Below are positions 24,463 to 45,920 of a stretch of 64,000 nucleotides of DNA, in pieces (position 1 is the stretch's first letter; every line of letters begins with the position of its first letter). Below the pieces are notes generated by a model. It did no database searches, was not told the origin of the DNA, and saw only the letters and a list, made by a program, of their open reading frames with translations. Source of the stretch: Flavobacterium galactosidilyticum (GTDB lineage Bacteria; Bacteroidota; Bacteroidia; Flavobacteriales; Flavobacteriaceae); contig NZ_CP087135.1 in assembly GCF_020911945.1 (NCBI RefSeq), positions 2,964,001 to 3,028,000 on the forward strand, given 5' to 3'. Position numbers and translations under genes: made by a program.

Positions 24463-24536
<74 letters not shown>

Positions 24537-24576
24537 ATTTTTCTTTTAAAACATAAATGGAAAAAGTTCTTTTTTG

Positions 24577-24651
24577 TCGGGGTGGCAGGATTCGAACCTG
24601 CGGCCTCCTGCTCCCAAAGCAGGCGCGATAACCGAGCTACGCTACACCCCG
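24577..24651 (-). tRNA. tRNA-Pro (anticodon TGG)
   Basis: Acceptor arms CGGGGTG and CACCCCG pair fully, with discriminator A. The anticodon arm CCTGC-TTTGGGA-GCAGG gives anticodon TGG, and the T-arm contains GGTTCGAATCC. No 3' CCA is encoded. It is the middle gene of the tRNA operon. Confidence 0.95.
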
Positions 24652-24671
24652 AAAAACAAAATTAATAACAG

Positions 24672-24755
24672 CGGAGAGACAGGGACTCGAACCCTGGCAC
24701 CGATCACTCGATGACAGTTTAGCAAACTGCTCCATTACCACTCTGGCACCTCTCC
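24672..24755 (-). tRNA. tRNA-Ser (anticodon GCT)
   Basis: Acceptor arms GGAGAGG and TCTCTCC pair (one G-T), with discriminator G as in serine tRNAs. The anticodon loop TTGCTAA gives GCT. A long variable arm (around TCATCGAGTGATCGG) and the T-arm GGTTCGAGTCC support the class II call. No 3' CCA is encoded. It is the first gene of the operon. Confidence 0.95.
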
Positions 24756-38516: not shown

Positions 38517-40031
38517 TTAAGTTAATATTAACAAATCGGATTCTATTTGAAAAGAATTTAAAAAATTTACCGTTTTTTCTATATCATAGTGTAAAATTCT
38601 GTCATATTTTATTAATGGAACTTCCGCACGATAGGCATTTAAGAACATTTCGATAAAATCACTAGATACTAATGGTCTTCTATATTCAATAGCTTGAGAA
38701 GCGTTCATTAACTCAATTGCTAGAATTCGCTCTAAATTATCTAAAACACGCAATGCCTTTGTTGCAGCATTTGCCCCCATGCTTACATGATCTTCTTGTC
38801 CGTTGCTCGAAACAATACTGTCAATACTTGCTGGTGTTGCCAGTTGTTTGTTTTGGCTAGCAATACTCGCTGCTGTATATTGAGGAATCATCAAACCGGA
38901 ATTTAAACCTGGATTATCTACTAAAAAGGCTGGAAGGTTTCTTGTTCCTGAAATTAATTGATACGTTCTACGCTCTGAGATACTTCCTAATTCGGCCAAA
39001 GCAATTGCCATGAAATCTAAGGCTAAAGCCAAAGGTTGTCCGTGAAAATTTCCACCGGATATGATTTGGTCGCTTTCGATAAAAATATTAGGATTATCCG
39101 TCACTGAATTGATTTCAGTTTTGAAAACTTTTTTCACATAATCAATAGCATCTTTTGAAGCACCATGCACTTGAGGCATGCATCTAAAAGAATAGGGGTC
39201 TTGGACGTGAACTTTAGGCTGTTCTATAATCTCACTTCCTTCAAGAAAACTTTTTATACGTTTTGCCGTTATGATCTGCCCTTTGTGTGGTCTGATAAAA
39301 TGGATTAGTTCATTGAAAGGTTCTATTCTACCATCAAAACCTTCTAAAGAAATTGTCCCTATTAAATCTGCTAAATATGAAAATTTACTTACTTTCATCA
39401 AAATATGAGCTCCATAAGCACTCATAAATTGAGTTCCATTCAATAAAGCCAGTCCTTCTTTTGATTGCAATACTAGAGGCTCCCAATTAAAAATTTTCAT
39501 TATTTCGCTTGAGTGCACTTTCTCTCCTTCATAATACACATCACCTTCACCTAGCAATGGCAACGATAAGTGTGCTAAAGGTGCTAAGTCACCAGATGCA
39601 CCAAGGGAACCTTGTGTGTAAATAACCGGCAAAACATCATGGTTATAAAATTCTATTAAGCGCTCAACAGTTTGTAATTGAACACCAGAATGACCATAAC
39701 TCAATGATTGAATTTTTAGTAATAGCATTAATTTTACAATAGAAAGTGGAGCCTCATCGCCTACTCCACATGCATGCGATTTCACTAAGTTTTCTTGTAG
39801 TTTTGATAAATTCTCATTAGATATTTTCACATTACATAGCGATCCAAAACCAGTATTTATACCATAGATAGCCTCAGATTGGGAAGCCATTTTTTTGTCT
39901 AAATAGGCTCTACATTTTTGAATGTTTGCTGTAGCTTCCTCAGACAATGCCAATTTCTTACCATGCGAAATAATTTCTTCTAAAGTTTCAATACTAAGTA
40001 ATTCAGTACTAATATAATGCGTATTATCCAT
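38517..40031 (-). CDS. hutH: Histidine ammonia-lyase
   Basis: The 504-residue enzyme has the MIO prosthetic-group triad Ala145-Ser146-Gly147 in GSLGASGDLAPL. His86 in VKSHACGVG and the run SSNGQEDHVSMG with its Glu favour histidine over tyrosine or phenylalanine as substrate. It deaminates L-histidine to urocanate. No hutU, hutI or hutG is near, so the rest of the pathway must lie elsewhere. Aromatic ammonia-lyases of flexirubin clusters look similar, but no flexirubin genes are present. It lies upstream of DUF47-PiT on the same strand. Confidence 0.88.
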   Translation of the reverse strand: MDNTHYISTELLSIETLEEIISHGKKLALSEEATANIQKCRAYLDKKMASQSEAIYGINTGFGSLCNVKISNENLSKLQENLVKSHACGVGDEAPLSIVKLMLLLKIQSLSYGHSGVQLQTVERLIEFYNHDVLPVIYTQGSLGASGDLAPLAHLSLPLLGEGDVYYEGEKVHSSEIMKIFNWEPLVLQSKEGLALLNGTQFMSAYGAHILMKVSKFSYLADLIGTISLEGFDGRIEPFNELIHFIRPHKGQIITAKRIKSFLEGSEIIEQPKVHVQDPYSFRCMPQVHGASKDAIDYVKKVFKTEINSVTDNPNIFIESDQIISGGNFHGQPLALALDFMAIALAELGSISERRTYQLISGTRNLPAFLVDNPGLNSGLMIPQYTAASIASQNKQLATPASIDSIVSSNGQEDHVSMGANAATKALRVLDNLERILAIELMNASQAIEYRRPLVSSDFIEMFLNAYRAEVPLIKYDRILHYDIEKTVNFLNSFQIESDLLILT

Positions 40032-40528
40032 TGTGATCGTGTTTGATTTGTAAAATTGAGTAAATCTTTATTATTACACAACTTATATTGCTAATAATTT
40101 AAAAACTACTATCAAACAAAACCAAAAATTAAATTCCATGTAATTAATCCAATAAGATGTAAAACTGAAATCTAGTTTTAAATAGAAACGCTCGTGAATA
40201 TGAAAGACTAGATAATTTTCAATACGCAAACTATTTTGCCGCTCCAAAGCGTTCTGTTACAAAGCTCACCTGAATGCAAATCTCATTTTCTAAATTAGTT
40301 CGTAAAGCAAATAAAGAGGAAATCCAATGTATGATTTCATGTAACAAGCAACATTCTAGAATTTTAAAGATTAAATAATACGCGAATTATACGAATAGCA
40401 TTAACTCAAAGATTATAAACGACACTAATTTTAAGTATTCATAATTGCCGCTAATAATTTTAAATTATTCGCAAAAATGCAACAAAAGCTTTCGTTTTTT
40501 AGAAAAAAGGCTATTTTTGTAATATAAA
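40032..40528. other. Long intergenic region between hutH and the thr leader
   Basis: Nearly 500 AT-rich bases without a supported gene. At about 40380-40470 there are repeated GCGAAT/ATTCGC-type words that resemble degraded intergenic repeat remnants. The right end carries the thr operon promoter. Promoters for hutH should lie at the left end; no strict TTTG/TAnnTTTG pair is visible there. Confidence 0.45.
40512..40519 (+). promoter_or_regulatory. Probable -7 box of the thr operon
   Basis: TATTTTTG fits TAnnTTTG. A partial -33 match (TTTCG at 40490-40494) lies 17 bases upstream. Transcription would start near 40524, only a few bases before the leader ATG at 40529. Confidence 0.5.
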
Positions 40529-40633
40529 ATGAAAAATAACAGAACAAAATATCAATCTTCGATAGCAACTCAAATTTGGGTTGATTCTTCTGTTACATTC
40601 ACTACAACAACTACAACTACCCCTTTGGGGTAA
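40529..40633 (+). CDS. Threonine-operon leader peptide
   Basis: A 34-codon frame (ATG 40529, TAA 40631) encodes a peptide ending SVTFTTTTTTTPLG. Seven Thr codons run without a break at 40601-40621, with an eighth two codons earlier. It lies directly upstream of thrA, with a T-run hairpin in between, and starts just after a Bacteroidota -7 box. This is the arrangement of classical ribosome-mediated attenuation, in which low charged tRNA-Thr stalls the ribosome and lets transcription continue. Only Thr, not Ile, is enriched, unlike E. coli thrL. The frame is too short for routine gene callers. Function is inferred from position and composition. Confidence 0.82.
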   Translation: MKNNRTKYQSSIATQIWVDSSVTFTTTTTTTPLG

Positions 40634-40642
40634 GCATTCTAC

Positions 40643-40674
40643 ATATAATCCTTTTTATTATATCTTTTTTTTTT
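40643..40674 (+). terminator. Candidate attenuator hairpin between leader peptide and thrA
   Basis: ATATAAT (40643-40649) and ATTATAT (40657-40663) form a 7-base-pair stem with a 7-base loop, followed by one C and ten T residues. The stem is all A-T and therefore weak, but the T-run is long. A CCCC-TTT-GGGG hairpin (40620-40630) covers the end of the Thr run and the leader stop and could be the competing or pausing structure. Confidence 0.6.
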
Positions 40675-40767
40675 CAGAAGAAGGAAAAATAGTGGGCATA
40701 TAAAAAACAGATTTTCATTATCTATTTGATGAAAATTATTCTATCATATTACAAATATAACCTTCGT

Positions 40768-43215
40768 ATGAAAGTATTAAAATTTGGCGGCACCTCGGTT
40801 GCCAATGCACAAAACATAAAACTTGTTATAAACATAGTCAGCAAAAAAGCTATAGACGAAAAATTAATTGTTGTAGTTTCGGCTTTCAGTAAAGTAACCG
40901 ACATGCTTCAAATAGCTTCTAAAAAAGCAGCGGCCGGTGACGAAAGCTTTAAAGAAATTCTTGCCGAAATAGAGAAAAAACATTTGGATGCTTTGAAAGA
41001 GCTTATTCCGGTAAGCGAACAAAGTAGTCTATTAAGTCATATCAAAAGAATTGTTAATCACCTAGAAACTTTATTAGATGGCTGCTATCTTTTAGGAGAA
41101 TTATCGTTGCGAACAGCAGATACAATTTTAAGTTTTGGAGAACTGCTTTCGTCCTACATTATTGCCGAAGCATTAAAACAAAACTTAAAGAATAGCGGTT
41201 ATAAAGACAGTCGTGAGCTGATAAAAACTAATAAGCATTTTGGCAAAGCAGCCGTAAACTTCGAAATCACAAATAGTCTAATAGTAGAATATTTTGGTTC
41301 GAATGAAAATCAAGTGGTGGTAATGCCAGGATTTATCGCTGCATCGCAAGATGGTATAAATACAACATTAGGTCGCGGAGGTTCTGATTATTCAGCGGCA
41401 ATAATAGCAGGAGCATTAAATGCAACTGAACTAGAAATTTGGACAGACGTCAACGGAATGTTTACAGCAAACCCAAAAGTGGTTAAGCAAGCGCAACCTA
41501 TTGCTTTTATTTCCTATCAAGAAGCGATGGAACTATCACATTTTGGTGCCAAAGTTTTATATCCACCAACAATTCAACCTGTGTTAAGAAAGAATATACC
41601 AATTCTTATCAAAAACACGTTTGACCCAGAAACGGATGGAACTTACATTTCGAATCAGGAATTGACACATACAAATCCTGTCAAAGGTATTAGTCATATA
41701 GATAATATCACTTTAATTACGCTGGAAGGCCCTGGAATGATCGGTGTGACTGGTTCATCTAAAAAACTTTTCGAGGTGCTATCGCATGAAAATATAAATG
41801 TTATATTTATTACTCAGGCATCCTCCGAACATTCTATATGTATCGGAATTTTAAATTCAGATGCTGATATTGCAGAAGAAGCAATCAACAAAGCTTTTGA
41901 AATTGAAATTTTTCAAAACAAAACCGATCCATGCATCGTTGAGAAAAACCTATGCATTATCGCTTTAGTAGGCGAGAACATGAAAAATCATCAAGGTTTA
42001 AGCGGCCGTATGTTCAGCACATTAGGAAAAAATAATGTTAACATTAGAGCGATTGCTCAAGGAGCATCTGAAAGAAACATTTCGGCAGTTATAAACGAGA
42101 GAGATGTCAAAAAAGCGCTAAATACACTACACGAAAACTTTTTTGAAGAAAATACAAAACAGTTGAATTTATTTGTCATGGGTGTTGGAAATGTAGGTGA
42201 AAAATTCATTGAACAAATTCACCAACAAAAGAAATTCTTAAAAGAGAACCTTAAGATAAACTTACGTGTAATTGCTTTGTCTAATTCAAGAAAAATGTAT
42301 TTTGATGAAGATGGTATTTCATTAAAAGATTGGCAACCGCTACTAGAATTAGGAGAAGCTGCTAATCAAGAAAAATTTATTGAGAGAGTAAAAGACCTTA
42401 ATTTGCGAAACAGTATTTTCGTTGATATCACAGCTAATGAAAGTATTTCAAGAACATACGAATATTATCTAAAACGTAATATTGCAGTTGTTACCTGTAA
42501 CAAAATTGCGTGCGCTTCAGAATATGATAATTATAAAAAACTGAAAAAATTATCACGACAATTCAATGCACCGTTTTTATTCGAAACCAATGTTGGAGCA
42601 GGTTTACCAATTATAGACACAGTAAAAAACTTAGTTGCCTCTGGCGATCAAGTACATAAAATCCAAGCTGTTTTATCAGGAAGTTTAAACTTCATATTCA
42701 ACAACTTTAATGAAAATAACACTTTTCATGATGTCGTGAAAGAAGCTGGAATACAAGGGTTTACAGAACCAGATCCCAAGATTGATTTGAGTGGAATTGA
42801 CGTAGCTAGAAAGATACTAATTCTGATACGAGAAAGTGGTTACCAGATGGAAATTGAGGAGATTACAAATGAATCTTTTATGCCAGCAGAATGTTTAGAT
42901 ACTACTTCAAACGAAGCATTTTTCAAATCATTAATAGATCACGCTTCACATTTTGAAAATATCTACAAGGAAGCCTTAAGTAAAGATTCAAGACTTAAAT
43001 ATGTAGCTCAATTTGAAAATGGCAAAGCAAACGTAGGCTTACGATTCATTCCTAAAGACCATCCGTTTTACAATCTAGAAGGAAAAGATAATATTGTTTT
43101 ATTCTTCACTGATCGTTACGTAGATCAACCATTATTAATAAAAGGCGCTGGTGCTGGAGCAGCAGTTACCGCAGCTGGAATTTTTGCAGATGTAATACGC
43201 ATTGGAAATTTATAA
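40768..43215 (+). CDS. thrA: Bifunctional aspartate kinase / homoserine dehydrogenase I
   Basis: About 815 residues from ATG 40768, chosen because MKVLKFGGTSVAN is the usual first strand of aspartate kinases; an in-frame ATG at 40726 would add 14 unconserved residues. Order: kinase domain (about 1-290), two ACT regulatory domains (about 300-450, with GPGMIGVTGSS), then homoserine dehydrogenase from FVMGVGNVGEKFI (about 455) with the catalytic region NVGAGLPIID and GSLNFIFN. The enzyme makes aspartyl phosphate and reduces aspartate semialdehyde to homoserine. ACT domains suggest threonine feedback. It heads thrA-thrB-thrC behind the leader peptide. Confidence 0.96.
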   Translation: MKVLKFGGTSVANAQNIKLVINIVSKKAIDEKLIVVVSAFSKVTDMLQIASKKAAAGDESFKEILAEIEKKHLDALKELIPVSEQSSLLSHIKRIVNHLETLLDGCYLLGELSLRTADTILSFGELLSSYIIAEALKQNLKNSGYKDSRELIKTNKHFGKAAVNFEITNSLIVEYFGSNENQVVVMPGFIAASQDGINTTLGRGGSDYSAAIIAGALNATELEIWTDVNGMFTANPKVVKQAQPIAFISYQEAMELSHFGAKVLYPPTIQPVLRKNIPILIKNTFDPETDGTYISNQELTHTNPVKGISHIDNITLITLEGPGMIGVTGSSKKLFEVLSHENINVIFITQASSEHSICIGILNSDADIAEEAINKAFEIEIFQNKTDPCIVEKNLCIIALVGENMKNHQGLSGRMFSTLGKNNVNIRAIAQGASERNISAVINERDVKKALNTLHENFFEENTKQLNLFVMGVGNVGEKFIEQIHQQKKFLKENLKINLRVIALSNSRKMYFDEDGISLKDWQPLLELGEAANQEKFIERVKDLNLRNSIFVDITANESISRTYEYYLKRNIAVVTCNKIACASEYDNYKKLKKLSRQFNAPFLFETNVGAGLPIIDTVKNLVASGDQVHKIQAVLSGSLNFIFNNFNENNTFHDVVKEAGIQGFTEPDPKIDLSGIDVARKILILIRESGYQMEIEEITNESFMPAECLDTTSNEAFFKSLIDHASHFENIYKEALSKDSRLKYVAQFENGKANVGLRFIPKDHPFYNLEGKDNIVLFFTDRYVDQPLLIKGAGAGAAVTAAGIFADVIRIGNL

Positions 43216-43257: not shown

Positions 43258-44178
43258 ATGAATGAAATAAAAATATTTTGCCCCGCAACAATTGCAAACT
43301 TATCCTGTGGATTTGATGTGCTTGGGTTGTGTCTAGAAACAGCAGGTGACGAAATGATTATAAAAAAATCAGATATAAAAGGGATCCGAATTACTAAAAT
43401 CATTGGTGCTGATTTACCGTTAGAAACAGATAAAAATGTTGCTGGTGTTGCTGGTTTGGCAATGTTAGAAAATGTAGATACTGAATTTGGATTTGATATT
43501 GAAATTTACAAAAACATAAAAGCAGGAAGTGGAATCGGAAGCAGTGCTGCTAGTTCAGCTGGAGCGGTTTTTGGAATTAATGAATTACTAGGACGACCGT
43601 TTACACGAAAGGAATTAGTTTTATTTGCAATGCAAGGCGAAAAACTAGCTAGCGGAAATGCTCACGCGGACAACGTTGCTCCTGCACTTTTAGGTGGATT
43701 TACTTTAGTTCGAAGTTCAAATCCATTGGATATTATAAAAATTAAAAGTCCGTCAGAATTATACGCGACAGTGGTTCACCCTCAAATTGAATTAAAAACC
43801 TCGGATGCGCGTTCTGTATTAAAGCAAAACATATCGCTGAAAAGTGCTATAACACAATGGGGAAATGTTGGCGGATTAATTGCTGGATTATACACCAAAG
43901 ATTATGAATTAATAGGACGCTCGTTGCATGATGTAATCATTGAACCATTACGAAGTGTCTTAATTCCCGGATTTGATTTAATCAAACAAACTGCGTTAGA
44001 AAATGGCGCTCTTGGTTCTGGAATATCAGGTTCTGGCCCTTCCATTTTTGCATTAAGCAAAGGGAAGGAAACCGCTGAAAAAATTGGAAAAGCAATGAGT
44101 GAAGTTTATGATAATATGAATTTACCTTATGAGATCCATGTGTCTAAGGTAAATGATGAGGGAATGAAAATAATTTAA
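43258..44178 (+). CDS. thrB: Homoserine kinase
   Basis: The 306-residue GHMP kinase has the ATP loop GSGIGSSAASSAGAV (about 97-111) and the C-terminal GSGISGSGPSIFAL motif. It phosphorylates homoserine. It follows thrA by 42 bases. The start region carries a short tandem duplication (ATGAAATAAAAA appears just before and again around the start), so a start a few bases upstream is imaginable but would hit a stop; ATG 43258 is kept. The thrA-thrB spacer also has a C-rich/G-rich pair CCCC...GGGG (43219-43241). Confidence 0.95.
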   Translation: MNEIKIFCPATIANLSCGFDVLGLCLETAGDEMIIKKSDIKGIRITKIIGADLPLETDKNVAGVAGLAMLENVDTEFGFDIEIYKNIKAGSGIGSSAASSAGAVFGINELLGRPFTRKELVLFAMQGEKLASGNAHADNVAPALLGGFTLVRSSNPLDIIKIKSPSELYATVVHPQIELKTSDARSVLKQNISLKSAITQWGNVGGLIAGLYTKDYELIGRSLHDVIIEPLRSVLIPGFDLIKQTALENGALGSGISGSGPSIFALSKGKETAEKIGKAMSEVYDNMNLPYEIHVSKVNDEGMKII

Positions 44179-44267: not shown

Positions 44268-45560
44268 ATGAAATACTACAGTTTAAACCATAACGCACCA
44301 AAGGTTTCTTTCCAAGAAGCAGTAATACAAGGATTAGCATCTGACAAAGGATTGTATTTTCCTGAAACTATAATGCCATTAGGTGAAGCTTTTTTTGAGA
44401 CTATCGAAAACTTGAGCAACGAAGAAATTGCTTTTGAAGCTATCAAACAATTTGTAGGTGACGAAATTCCCGAAAATATCTTAAAAGAAATCATTACAGA
44501 AACACTGTGTTTTAATTTTCCAGTAGTTATGGTAGAAAAAGATATTTATTCGCTAGAATTGTTTCATGGTCCAACAATGGCTTTTAAGGATGTAGGTGCA
44601 CGATTTATGTCCAGATGCTTAGCCTATTTTAATAGAGACAAAAAAGACAACAAAAACACAGTTCTTGTTGCCACATCAGGTGATACTGGAGGTGCTGTCG
44701 CAAGCGGGTTTCTGGGTGTAAAAGGCGTTGATGTCATCATTTTATATCCTTCGGGAAAAGTAAGTGATATTCAGGAAAGACAACTAACCACTTTAGGCCA
44801 AAACATCACTGCTCTAGAAGTAGATGGCGTTTTTGATGATTGTCAAGATATGGTTAAAAAAGCATTCTTAGATGCGGATTTAAAAGATAAAAACCTGACT
44901 TCAGCAAATTCTATTAATATTGCACGTTGGTTACCTCAAATGTTCTATTTTTTCTTTGCTTATAAAGCATTAAAAAAGCAGAATAAACCATTAATTTTCT
45001 CCTGTCCGAGTGGTAATTTTGGAAACATTTGTGCTGGTATTATCGCTAAAAAAATGGGATTACCGATCGAGCATTTTGTAGCGTCCACTAACGTGAATGA
45101 TACCGTTCCACGATTTTTAGAAAACGGAACTTACGCCCCAAAACCTTCTAAGACCACGATTTCGAATGCAATGGATGTTGGAAATCCAAGCAATTTCATC
45201 CGAATTCAGGAAATGTATCAAAATGATTTGAAGCAGTTCAAAAAAGACTTTTCAGCTTTTACTTTTTCTGACGAAGAAACGTTAGAAGCTATGAAATACA
45301 TTTATAATACAGACGGCTATATTGCTGAACCACATGGAGCTGTTGGGTATTTAGGATTAAAAAAGGAATTGCAAAATCATGAAAATGCAATTGGTATTTT
45401 CTTAGAAACGGCTCATCCTATTAAATTCTTGGATACAGTTGAACCAACTTTAAATATAAAACTGCCTATCCCACCTCAAATCGAAAGTGTAATGGATAAA
45501 GAAAAAGTAAGTATAAAAATTAAAACTTACGAAGATTTGAAAGCGTTTTTACAAAAGTAA
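44268..45560 (+). CDS. thrC: Threonine synthase
   Basis: The 430-residue PLP enzyme converts O-phosphohomoserine to threonine. The PLP lysine is in HGPTMAFKDVGARF (near residue 107), and the phosphate-binding run ATSGDTGGAVASGF and the late glycine-rich SCPSGNFGNICAG are present. Length fits the short bacterial class. It is the last gene of the thr operon. No terminator of the usual kind follows; instead a structured element lies about 260 bases downstream. Confidence 0.96.
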   Translation: MKYYSLNHNAPKVSFQEAVIQGLASDKGLYFPETIMPLGEAFFETIENLSNEEIAFEAIKQFVGDEIPENILKEIITETLCFNFPVVMVEKDIYSLELFHGPTMAFKDVGARFMSRCLAYFNRDKKDNKNTVLVATSGDTGGAVASGFLGVKGVDVIILYPSGKVSDIQERQLTTLGQNITALEVDGVFDDCQDMVKKAFLDADLKDKNLTSANSINIARWLPQMFYFFFAYKALKKQNKPLIFSCPSGNFGNICAGIIAKKMGLPIEHFVASTNVNDTVPRFLENGTYAPKPSKTTISNAMDVGNPSNFIRIQEMYQNDLKQFKKDFSAFTFSDEETLEAMKYIYNTDGYIAEPHGAVGYLGLKKELQNHENAIGIFLETAHPIKFLDTVEPTLNIKLPIPPQIESVMDKEKVSIKIKTYEDLKAFLQK

Positions 45561-45820
45561 AATAGAAGGTAATAAATTATTAGTAATACGGAAATGTCAG
45601 TTATATTTCACAAGATAAGAATTAATTTCAACGCTTAGGGTATTGAAGAAAAGCTGATCTTATCTAAACAACAAATATCTAATCCTCATTACAATTTTTC
45701 AAATACAAGAGAAAAATTATGATGGGGATTTTGTTTGGTATAAAACGAATCCTGTCTGTACTTTTATATCTTGTTTTTTTTCTAAAAGTTCATTTGATAA
45801 AAAACGTGATATTTAACCTT

Positions 45821-45920
45821 GATAGGAGCGACATCTTTTATGCTTGGGGTTCAAGCATAAAGATAAAGCGAATAGCAAGAGTATATTTCTAAAAAAAAAC
45901 GAAAACGGATGCTCCTGATT
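45821..45920 (+). ncRNA. Structured intergenic element A (candidate RNA or repeat)
   Basis: Outer arms AGGAGC (45824-45829) and GCTCCT (45911-45916) enclose a 13-base-pair hairpin with one bulge: ATCTTTTATGCTTG (45833-45846) and CAAGCATAAAGAT (45852-45864), loop GGGTT. The segment between hairpin and closing arm contains GCGAATAGC. The same outline (GAGC, ATAGC, GCTCC, then an A-run) recurs at 57550-57600. Strand is given as that of the preceding gene; the real strand and whether it is transcribed are unknown. Confidence 0.5.

Follow-up and report, generated by a model that had tools for sequence, protein, structure and literature searches.

The window, a stretch of 64,000 nucleotides from Flavobacterium galactosidilyticum (whose 3.53-Mb genome is a single contig), carries the threonine operon on its plus strand. 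The operon consists of thrA, for the bifunctional aspartate kinase/homoserine dehydrogenase I (40771..43215; NF006959, 1042 bits), thrB, for homoserine kinase (43258..44178; NF002288, 412.7 bits), and thrC, for threonine synthase (44268..45560; TIGR00260, 301.1 bits). Among the matches listed, the closest named relatives are Flavobacterium species whose thrA is at most 91% identical. A histidine ammonia-lyase-like gene, hutH (38517-40031; 607 bits to TIGR01225), is divergent from the thr leader described below and is separated from the -7 box of that leader by about 480 nt. Downstream of thrC and on the same strand lies a Flavo-1 RNA (RF01705, 68.2 bits; 45811-45886), the function of which is called unclear in a passage of PMC9723704, and a cluster of three tRNA genes occupies 24463-24755 on the minus strand. 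Some 22 kb from pheA, this genome has a second aspartate kinase/homoserine dehydrogenase-like gene (G000:C1:458285-460681), an open frame of 1132 codons with 35% identity.

The thr leader in Flavobacterium

The original prediction for this locus was a threonine leader peptide followed by a classical attenuator, and the features that it described for the leader itself are present, all on the plus strand. The -7 box that it placed before the leader frame is TATTTTTG, of the TAnnTTTG type, at 40512..40519, and the ATG follows 9 nt after the box. The 34-codon frame, MKNNRTKYQSSIATQIWVDSSVTFTTTTTTTPLG, runs from 40529 to 40633 with its stop codon TAA at 40631-40633, and the seven Thr codons in a row (ACT ACA ACA ACT ACA ACT ACC) that make up the sensing segment are found at 40601..40621. 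The CCCC-TTT-GGGG hairpin over the end of the leader, in its full form TACCCC-TTT-GGGGTA and here called hairpin A, lies at 40618..40632 and overlaps the stop codon. Behind it come a conserved motif, ACATATAATCC (40641..40651; family form yATATnnTCCG), and the ten T residues that had also been pointed out, which lie inside 40664-40675. The leader had been described as standing directly before thrA; it is indeed upstream of thrA but not directly so, with 137 nt between leader stop and thrA in the window and 103-270 nt in the genus (270 nt in L028).

The upstream regions of relatives were aligned, as the original prediction had suggested, and the Thr-rich frame is retained while the sequence drifts. 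The genus-level set consisted of 81 thrA loci on named genome contigs, namely the window and the best 80 of 331 confirmed relatives; thrA of these 80 is 81-91% identical to that of the window, and their labels are nearly all Flavobacterium. Two contigs (L054 and L066) are labelled as a Klebsiella pneumoniae MAG and a Lentimicrobium MAG, yet their thrA is Flavobacterium-like (84% and 83% identity), and they are probably mislabelled or contaminated bins. In each of the 81 loci, 5-10 of the last 14 codons of the most Thr-rich short frame are Thr codons, and the leader ATG is preceded by a TAnnTTTG box whose end lies 6-11 nt upstream (81/81, vs the box in 5/565 control windows). Transcription would be expected to start a few nucleotides past this box, which in the window would give the leader a 5' UTR of about 5 nt. 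The Thr codons of the genus leaders are ACT (272), ACA (208), ACC (111) and ACG (19). Close pairs of leaders have a nonsynonymous/synonymous rate ratio of 0.68, suggesting mild constraint on the leader peptide at the protein level; constraint of this degree is expected, because the codons of a leader matter and its product does not.

The 5' half of the leader frame (40538..40594) is structured in the genus only, with an AACAGAA/TTCTGTT stem around two hairpins, TATC/GATA and CAACTC/GGGTTG. In the RNAalifold consensus of 79 rows, stem pair 66:115 is paired in 61/77 (C-G 32, A-U 25, U-A 4), and the outer stem of this branched structure has pair changes on both sides. The minimum free energy (MFE) fold of the window contains the outer stem and the inner hairpins as well.

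Hairpin A is nearly invariant in the genus, where its five inner pairs are kept in 75-78 of 76-78 rows and its outermost pair in 72/78. Covariation was looked for in hairpin A and none was found (85.4% of cells paired, vs 86.1% in shuffled alignments); the hairpin is not provable in this way, because its C-G core hardly varies. For pairs extending outward from the hairpin (n = 71), the first is formed in 69 (shuffled mean 65.2, maximum 69), the second in 43 (32.1, maximum 44), the third in 30 (32.0) and the fourth in 26 (24.4). Alignment A2 understates the pairing of hairpin A, because 3- and 4-nt loops are mixed in it.

The motif is phased to the hairpin. In the 75 of 81 genus loci where the distances are measurable, the spacing from hairpin to ATATA has a standard deviation of 0.66 nt, vs 2.63 nt for the spacing from stop codon to ATATA, and the distance from hairpin A to the motif is mostly 12-13 nt. 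The leader stop is a TAG within the hairpin in 66/81 loci and a TAA after it in 13 (2 are unplaced), with no shift of the motif; since the stop can lie in either place, it is the distance to the hairpin and not to the stop that is kept, which suggests that the unit is recognized in its RNA form or by the polymerase. Behind hairpin A, alignments A1 and A2 both contain a G-poor stretch that carries the motif as UAUAUnnUCC. Among 68 family loci ATAT occurs in 58 (37.8 in shuffled sequence) and TCCG in 31 (8.2 in shuffled sequence). Long-range pairing of the motif, through its GUCCG, with the 5' leader, where CGGACA was seen by eye in four loci, was also considered and was rejected: the own partner gave -7.9 kcal/mol and a swapped partner -7.5, with the own partner better in just 35/68 loci (p 0.26).

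The element outside the genus

The family set consisted of 86 upstream regions from 119 other genomes of the family, each with a thrA-like match over the whole or nearly the whole query; a truncated gene (G062) and a split one (G095) were left out, and the remaining genomes had more distant, partial or no listed matches. A phylum-wide search added 34 upstream regions, one of which (L171) belongs to the same family. The hairpin finder was run on L085-L183 except L157, L160, L164, L178, L179 and L183, and L184-L204 were scanned for Thr-rich frames only. A CC/GG hairpin was found in 71/93 scanned loci overall and in 68/83 of the family set (L085-L170), and it was not detected in the other 15 of the 83; dinucleotide-shuffled upstream sequences gave a mean of 5.5/83. 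All 68 of the real family hairpins are of the ACCC..GGG type, of which shuffled sequence yields 0.3. The hairpin together with a frame that ends there and has at least 4 Thr or Ile in its last 14 codons is present in 62/83 family loci, against a shuffled mean of 0.1, and the same scan of 20 his, phe and ilv upstream regions returned 1 hairpin and 0 Thr/Ile frames.

In 68/71 hairpin-bearing loci outside the genus the hairpin is where an ATG frame ends; the frames of the other three use different start codons, and 59 of the 68 ATG frames have at least 3 Thr in the last 14 codons. Over these 68 loci Thr and Ile together account for 45% of these codons in frame and for 5% and 2% of those in the two alternative frames, the in-frame figure being somewhat biased by the choice of the richest open frame. 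A TAnnTTTG box lies within 45 nt of the ATG in 55/68 frames, usually 16-22 nt before it. Two parts of the original prediction apply locally, to the window and its genus. Thr as the only signal fits the window and the genus (Thr 54% and Ile 8% of the last 14 leader codons) but not the loci outside it (Thr 30%, Ile 15%), and a nearly leaderless start likewise fits the 6-11 nt spacing of the genus but not the mostly 16-22 nt found elsewhere. With a Thr-rich frame in 81/81 genus loci and a Thr/Ile-rich one in 62/83 family loci, the claim that thrABC is preceded by a Thr-sensing leader peptide stands: the leader is real and widely conserved.

Some loci depart from this arrangement. In L178 and L179, which belong to another family, a Thr-rich frame ends by eye at an inverted stop-codon hairpin, ACGGG-stop-CCCGT, possibly a case of convergence or of a flip. 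In some genera (L141, L142, L149 and L163) thrA directly follows another gene with the C-terminus ELFQFLV/I, which we take to resemble that of threonine dehydratase, and no thr leader was seen between the two genes.

A covariance model, R1, was built from the Thr-codon end of the leader, hairpin A and the motif, after the doubtful hairpins of L128, L130, L147 and L165 had been removed. Only the best candidates of each genome were scored (45 in the family run, 22 in the phylum run), under strict filters. Among 120 family genomes, 59 matched at E<=0.1, each with a single match, and all 59 matches are on the same strand as thrA and upstream of it, with 29-264 nt from the end of the element to the gene (264 nt in G088). 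The other 61 genomes had no match among the best candidates under these filters, and absence of a match in a genome is weak evidence for that reason. Among 247 phylum genomes, 28 had one match each at E<=0.05, 20 of them in Flavobacteriaceae and 8 in one other family (f21). In all 20 of the phylum loci that were fetched thrA stands beside the match, as it does by coordinates in G184, G196 and G001, a count that leaves out five phylum matches (G211, G276, G303, G307 and G350). R1 was built from many of the genomes that it later matched, and the informative part is that nothing else matched; since no match was seen at another gene, the element looks thrA-specific and not like a general attenuator cassette.

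Terminators and the sister leaders

According to the original prediction, attenuation at this leader would end in an intrinsic terminator with an unusually weak stem, formed by an A/T hairpin and the ten T residues. The A/T hairpin (40643-40663) has a folding energy of -0.6 kcal/mol. Its pattern can be placed in 67/81 genus loci, in none of which it reaches -2 kcal/mol, and its median of 0.0 kcal/mol compares with -0.23 for shuffled sequence; the stem is thus unconserved, shuffled sequences do as well, and this part of the prediction failed. In the genus consensus and in the window MFE fold the T run belongs to another structure, hairpin B (40664..40692, approximate borders), as its 5' arm; the second arm of hairpin B is of the GAAGAAGG type, and its pairs are kept in 57-75 of 71-78 genus loci. 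The hairpin B region has a mean folding z of -1.47 in 79 genus loci and of -1.03 in 68 family loci. Judged by eye, the T run is not common to alignment A1 outside the genus.

A strict scan for a hairpin followed by a U-tract, at -8 kcal/mol or better, found none before thrA in the 81 genus loci, and none before thrA in seven other matched genomes. At -5 kcal/mol or better 3 of the 81 loci are found, and the best such structure before thrA in the window has -1.3 kcal/mol. Looser U-tract rules gave 17/86 family and 3/81 genus loci at -8, counts that include hairpin A and other stems, as compared with 5/86 and 0/81 under the strict rules. The family loci at -8 or better are L170 (-15.5, no leader seen), L164 (-11.9), L160 (-10.1), L162 (-9.2) and L161 (-8.8, hairpin A itself). 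L160 and L164 and, outside the family, L181 and L183 appear by eye to have a Thr/Ile leader with a real terminator, which indicates that both designs exist for the thr operon.

An antiterminator drawn by hand, GGGGUAUA:UAUAAUCC, which assigned the A/T stem to 3:4 of a 1:2/2:3/3:4 scheme, was dropped because that stem is unconserved and because, to the eye, loci outside the genus do not have the T run in common. Inspection by eye alone also brought up a 2:3-like pairing, GGGGUA:UAAUCC, for which the thr leader offers no competing terminator arm.

Other amino acid operons of the same genomes serve as a control. hisG, pheA and ilvD were located in eight genomes including that of the window, giving 20 upstream regions (8 his, 6 phe and 6 ilv, the phe and ilv regions coming from 6 of the 8 genomes searched). 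In each of them it was possible to pick a short frame in which His, Phe or Ile/Leu/Val is abundant. The frame chosen was always the richest in its amino acid, and for pheA of the genome that holds the window (L214) this choice is probably wrong; immediately downstream of the chosen frame there is a Phe/Tyr-rich one, and the terminator is unaffected. A hairpin with a U-tract at -11 kcal/mol or better is present in all of the regions (his 8/8, phe 6/6, ilv 6/6; range -11 to -28). The leader end forms a duplex with the 5' arm of the terminator with mean energies of -13.2, -12.3 and -11.8 kcal/mol for his, phe and ilv, vs -5.8, -5.5 and -7.2 in shuffled sequence, a pairing that by its sequence reads as the expected antiterminator. 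The attenuators upstream of hisG, pheA and ilvD (L206-L225) look like textbook examples across Flavobacteriaceae, and 6/8 his loci have CTCAAGCG where the leader ends together with the complementary CGTTTGAG in the terminator arm. Terminators at -11 kcal/mol or better thus accompany 20/20 his, phe and ilv leaders, as against 0/81 genus thr leaders even at -8, so that intrinsic-terminator attenuation is not supported for the thr leader, which is the odd one among the four in its own genome.

Possible outputs of the thr switch

In its textbook form, leader-peptide control of amino acid operons depends on an intrinsic terminator. The thr operon, one of the four compared here, keeps the peptide sensor without the terminator, and its output must therefore differ. 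Ribosome position on the Thr codons is well supported as the sensor by the sequence features described above. The output step would most likely consist of pausing followed by Rho-dependent termination, although this is a best guess. The complete proposal, in which thrABC would be governed by a leader-peptide switch that senses charged tRNA-Thr by ribosome position and has an output other than an intrinsic terminator, likely Rho, is put forward tentatively, as one whose chances fall a little below the balance point.

The evidence that bears on Rho comes from its gene and from the composition of the spacer. The genome of the window encodes Rho (TIGR00767, 638.6 bits with a cut-off of 509.45). 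The family spacer after the leader contains 8.0% G vs 14.5% upstream, and C exceeds twice G in 33/68 family spacers vs 2/68 upstream stretches. This excess occurs in 0/20 of the 90-nt stretches that follow his, phe and ilv leaders and that include the terminator stems. It is found in only 8/79 genus spacers, and the window spacer has 12.1% C and 10.6% G, so that the signal for Rho is at its least clear in the very genus of the finding. Rho is present, and the bias of C over G that marks the family is scarcely seen in the genus; Rho-dependent termination is thus the best guess and not a result.

Four other explanations deserve consideration. The leader ribosome could shift the folding of hairpins A and B and thereby affect the initiation of thrA translation or the stability of the mRNA through RNase access, a reading that suits the lack of a terminator in the genus and the better than shuffled average folding of the hairpin B region (z -1.0 to -1.5). 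We consider it unlikely, given that the spacer to thrA is very variable (up to 270 nt in L028, and 264 nt from the R1 match in G088) and that the accessibility of the thrA start equals that of the shuffled control (burial 0.5 vs 0.5 with shuffled spacers, in 66 loci of the family and not of the genus). The 103-270 nt spacers of the genus favor control of elongation over control at the thrA start codon, and a variable spacer with a start no more buried than by chance in the family makes translational control less likely. Distinctly unlikely, in our judgment, is a pause-and-release device in which hairpin A would simply hold the polymerase until a ribosome arrives, with no termination step. The tight spacing of hairpin and motif (mostly 12-13 nt, standard deviation 0.66) speaks for such a device, as does the finding that a stop inside the hairpin (TAG, 66/81) or after it (TAA, 13) leaves the motif in place, but a pause relieved by the ribosome predicts higher expression when Thr is plentiful, opposite to the need.

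Still more doubtful is classical ribosome-mediated attenuation with a weak intrinsic A/U terminator that ends at the T run near 40675. The A/T stem and the ten T do exist in the window, the genus loci in which the pattern can be placed (67/81) have a T-rich run behind the motif, and a few other thr loci pair a Thr/Ile leader with a terminator (L164 at -11.9 kcal/mol; L160, L181 and L183 by eye). Weighing against it are the -0.6 kcal/mol stem at the level of shuffled sequence (0/67 loci at -2 or below), the -1.3 kcal/mol of the best hairpin and U-tract in the window, a T run that by eye is not shared in alignment A1 outside the genus, and sister leaders that use terminators of -11 to -28 kcal/mol in these same genomes. 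It is very unlikely that the Thr-rich frame is a coincidence within a conserved block that is really an unrelated RNA or promoter element. The rate ratio of just 0.68, with its mild protein-level constraint, would fit such a coincidence; the frame, the position of its stop, the in-frame Thr/Ile enrichment and the promoter spacing are nevertheless all kept, shuffled regions give 0.1 such loci vs 62/83 real ones, and all 59 family matches and all 20 fetched phylum matches of R1 are at thrA.

The preferred reading, ribosome-gated termination that most likely depends on Rho, can be modeled as follows. Hairpin A and the A/U-rich motif about 12 nt downstream would constitute a putative hairpin-stabilized pause site for RNA polymerase; known pauses of this class show a spacing like that between hairpin A and the motif. 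The pause would take the role of the 1:2 pause hairpin in classical attenuators, and the timing of transcription would pass to the ribosome. When Thr is plentiful, the ribosome would reach the stop codon, open hairpin A and leave; the naked spacer before thrA would then be exposed, and transcription would be ended by a factor, most likely Rho. When Thr is scarce, the ribosome would stall on the Thr run upstream, hairpin A would stay folded and elongation into thrA would be favored. In many relatives outside the genus tRNA-Ile might be sensed besides tRNA-Thr. On a simple view, a polymerase paused with the hairpin formed would help Rho under starvation, which is the wrong sign, and the proposed logic requires hairpin A to act, hypothetically, in antitermination. 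A broader and more tentative proposal is that the stop-codon hairpin phased to a pause motif is a thrA-linked RNA element, widespread in Flavobacteriaceae and one further family, that would mediate ribosome-gated, factor-dependent attenuation.

Comparisons with known systems sharpen what is different here. The threonine operon attenuator of E. coli, thrL, has a Thr leader family in Rfam. The Flavobacterium leader resembles thrL in its Thr (and Ile) codons within a short frame before thrA, in the hairpin at the leader end and in the logic of ribosome stalling; unlike thrL, it lacks a strong intrinsic terminator, no switchable terminator arm was found, and the position of its motif is set by a hairpin that either includes the stop codon or adjoins it. 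The Rfam Thr leader has no match in the window at the gathering threshold, nor in 40450-40800 at E<=5. With the his, phe and ilv leaders of the same genomes the thr leader shares the arrangement of a biosynthetic operon preceded by a short frame in which the regulatory amino acid is frequent, but not their -11 to -28 kcal/mol terminators or leader ends that pair with the terminator arm. The leader peptides tnaC and mgtL belong to Rho-dependent systems that sense other signals. The point of resemblance to the thr leader would be a leader peptide that governs factor-dependent termination within the untranslated spacer behind it, the role of Rho being hypothetical in the present case. The Bacteroid-trp RNA motif is linked to the leader of the trp operon.

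That motif (RF01692) is named as a Bacteroidetes RNA motif in a portion of PMC2864571, and the thr leader is like it an RNA motif of Bacteroidetes, although RF01692 has no match in the window at gathering, nor in 40450-40800 at E<=5. Clues to leader-peptide attenuation and conserved pheA and hisG elements have been described for Flavobacterium psychrophilum (PMC9723704); as far as its main text goes, that paper contains neither thrA nor threonine and describes no class without a terminator among its leader elements, and its supplementary tables may list thrA. Leader-peptide-like frames of B. thetaiotaomicron are mentioned in PMC7366714, a paper in which neither threonine nor thrA appears, and PMC2965389 has no mention of threonine, thrA, bacteroid-, flavobact- or cytophaga. 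A comparative attenuation study from 2010, by Lopatovskaya et al., is cited in a section of PMC4833913. In the titles and abstract openings of the literature searched, whose coverage leaves most subscription journals outside, there is no description of a Thr leader without a terminator.

A thr sensor without a terminator is found in the genome of the window and in relatives from many genera. It allows two modes of ribosomal control over RNA polymerase to be compared as they occur naturally in a single cell, and it is a place to ask what acts in this phylum, be it Rho, pausing or another mechanism. If the proposal is true, the thr operon would be under ribosome-gated, factor-dependent attenuation in a genome whose other such operons use textbook attenuators.
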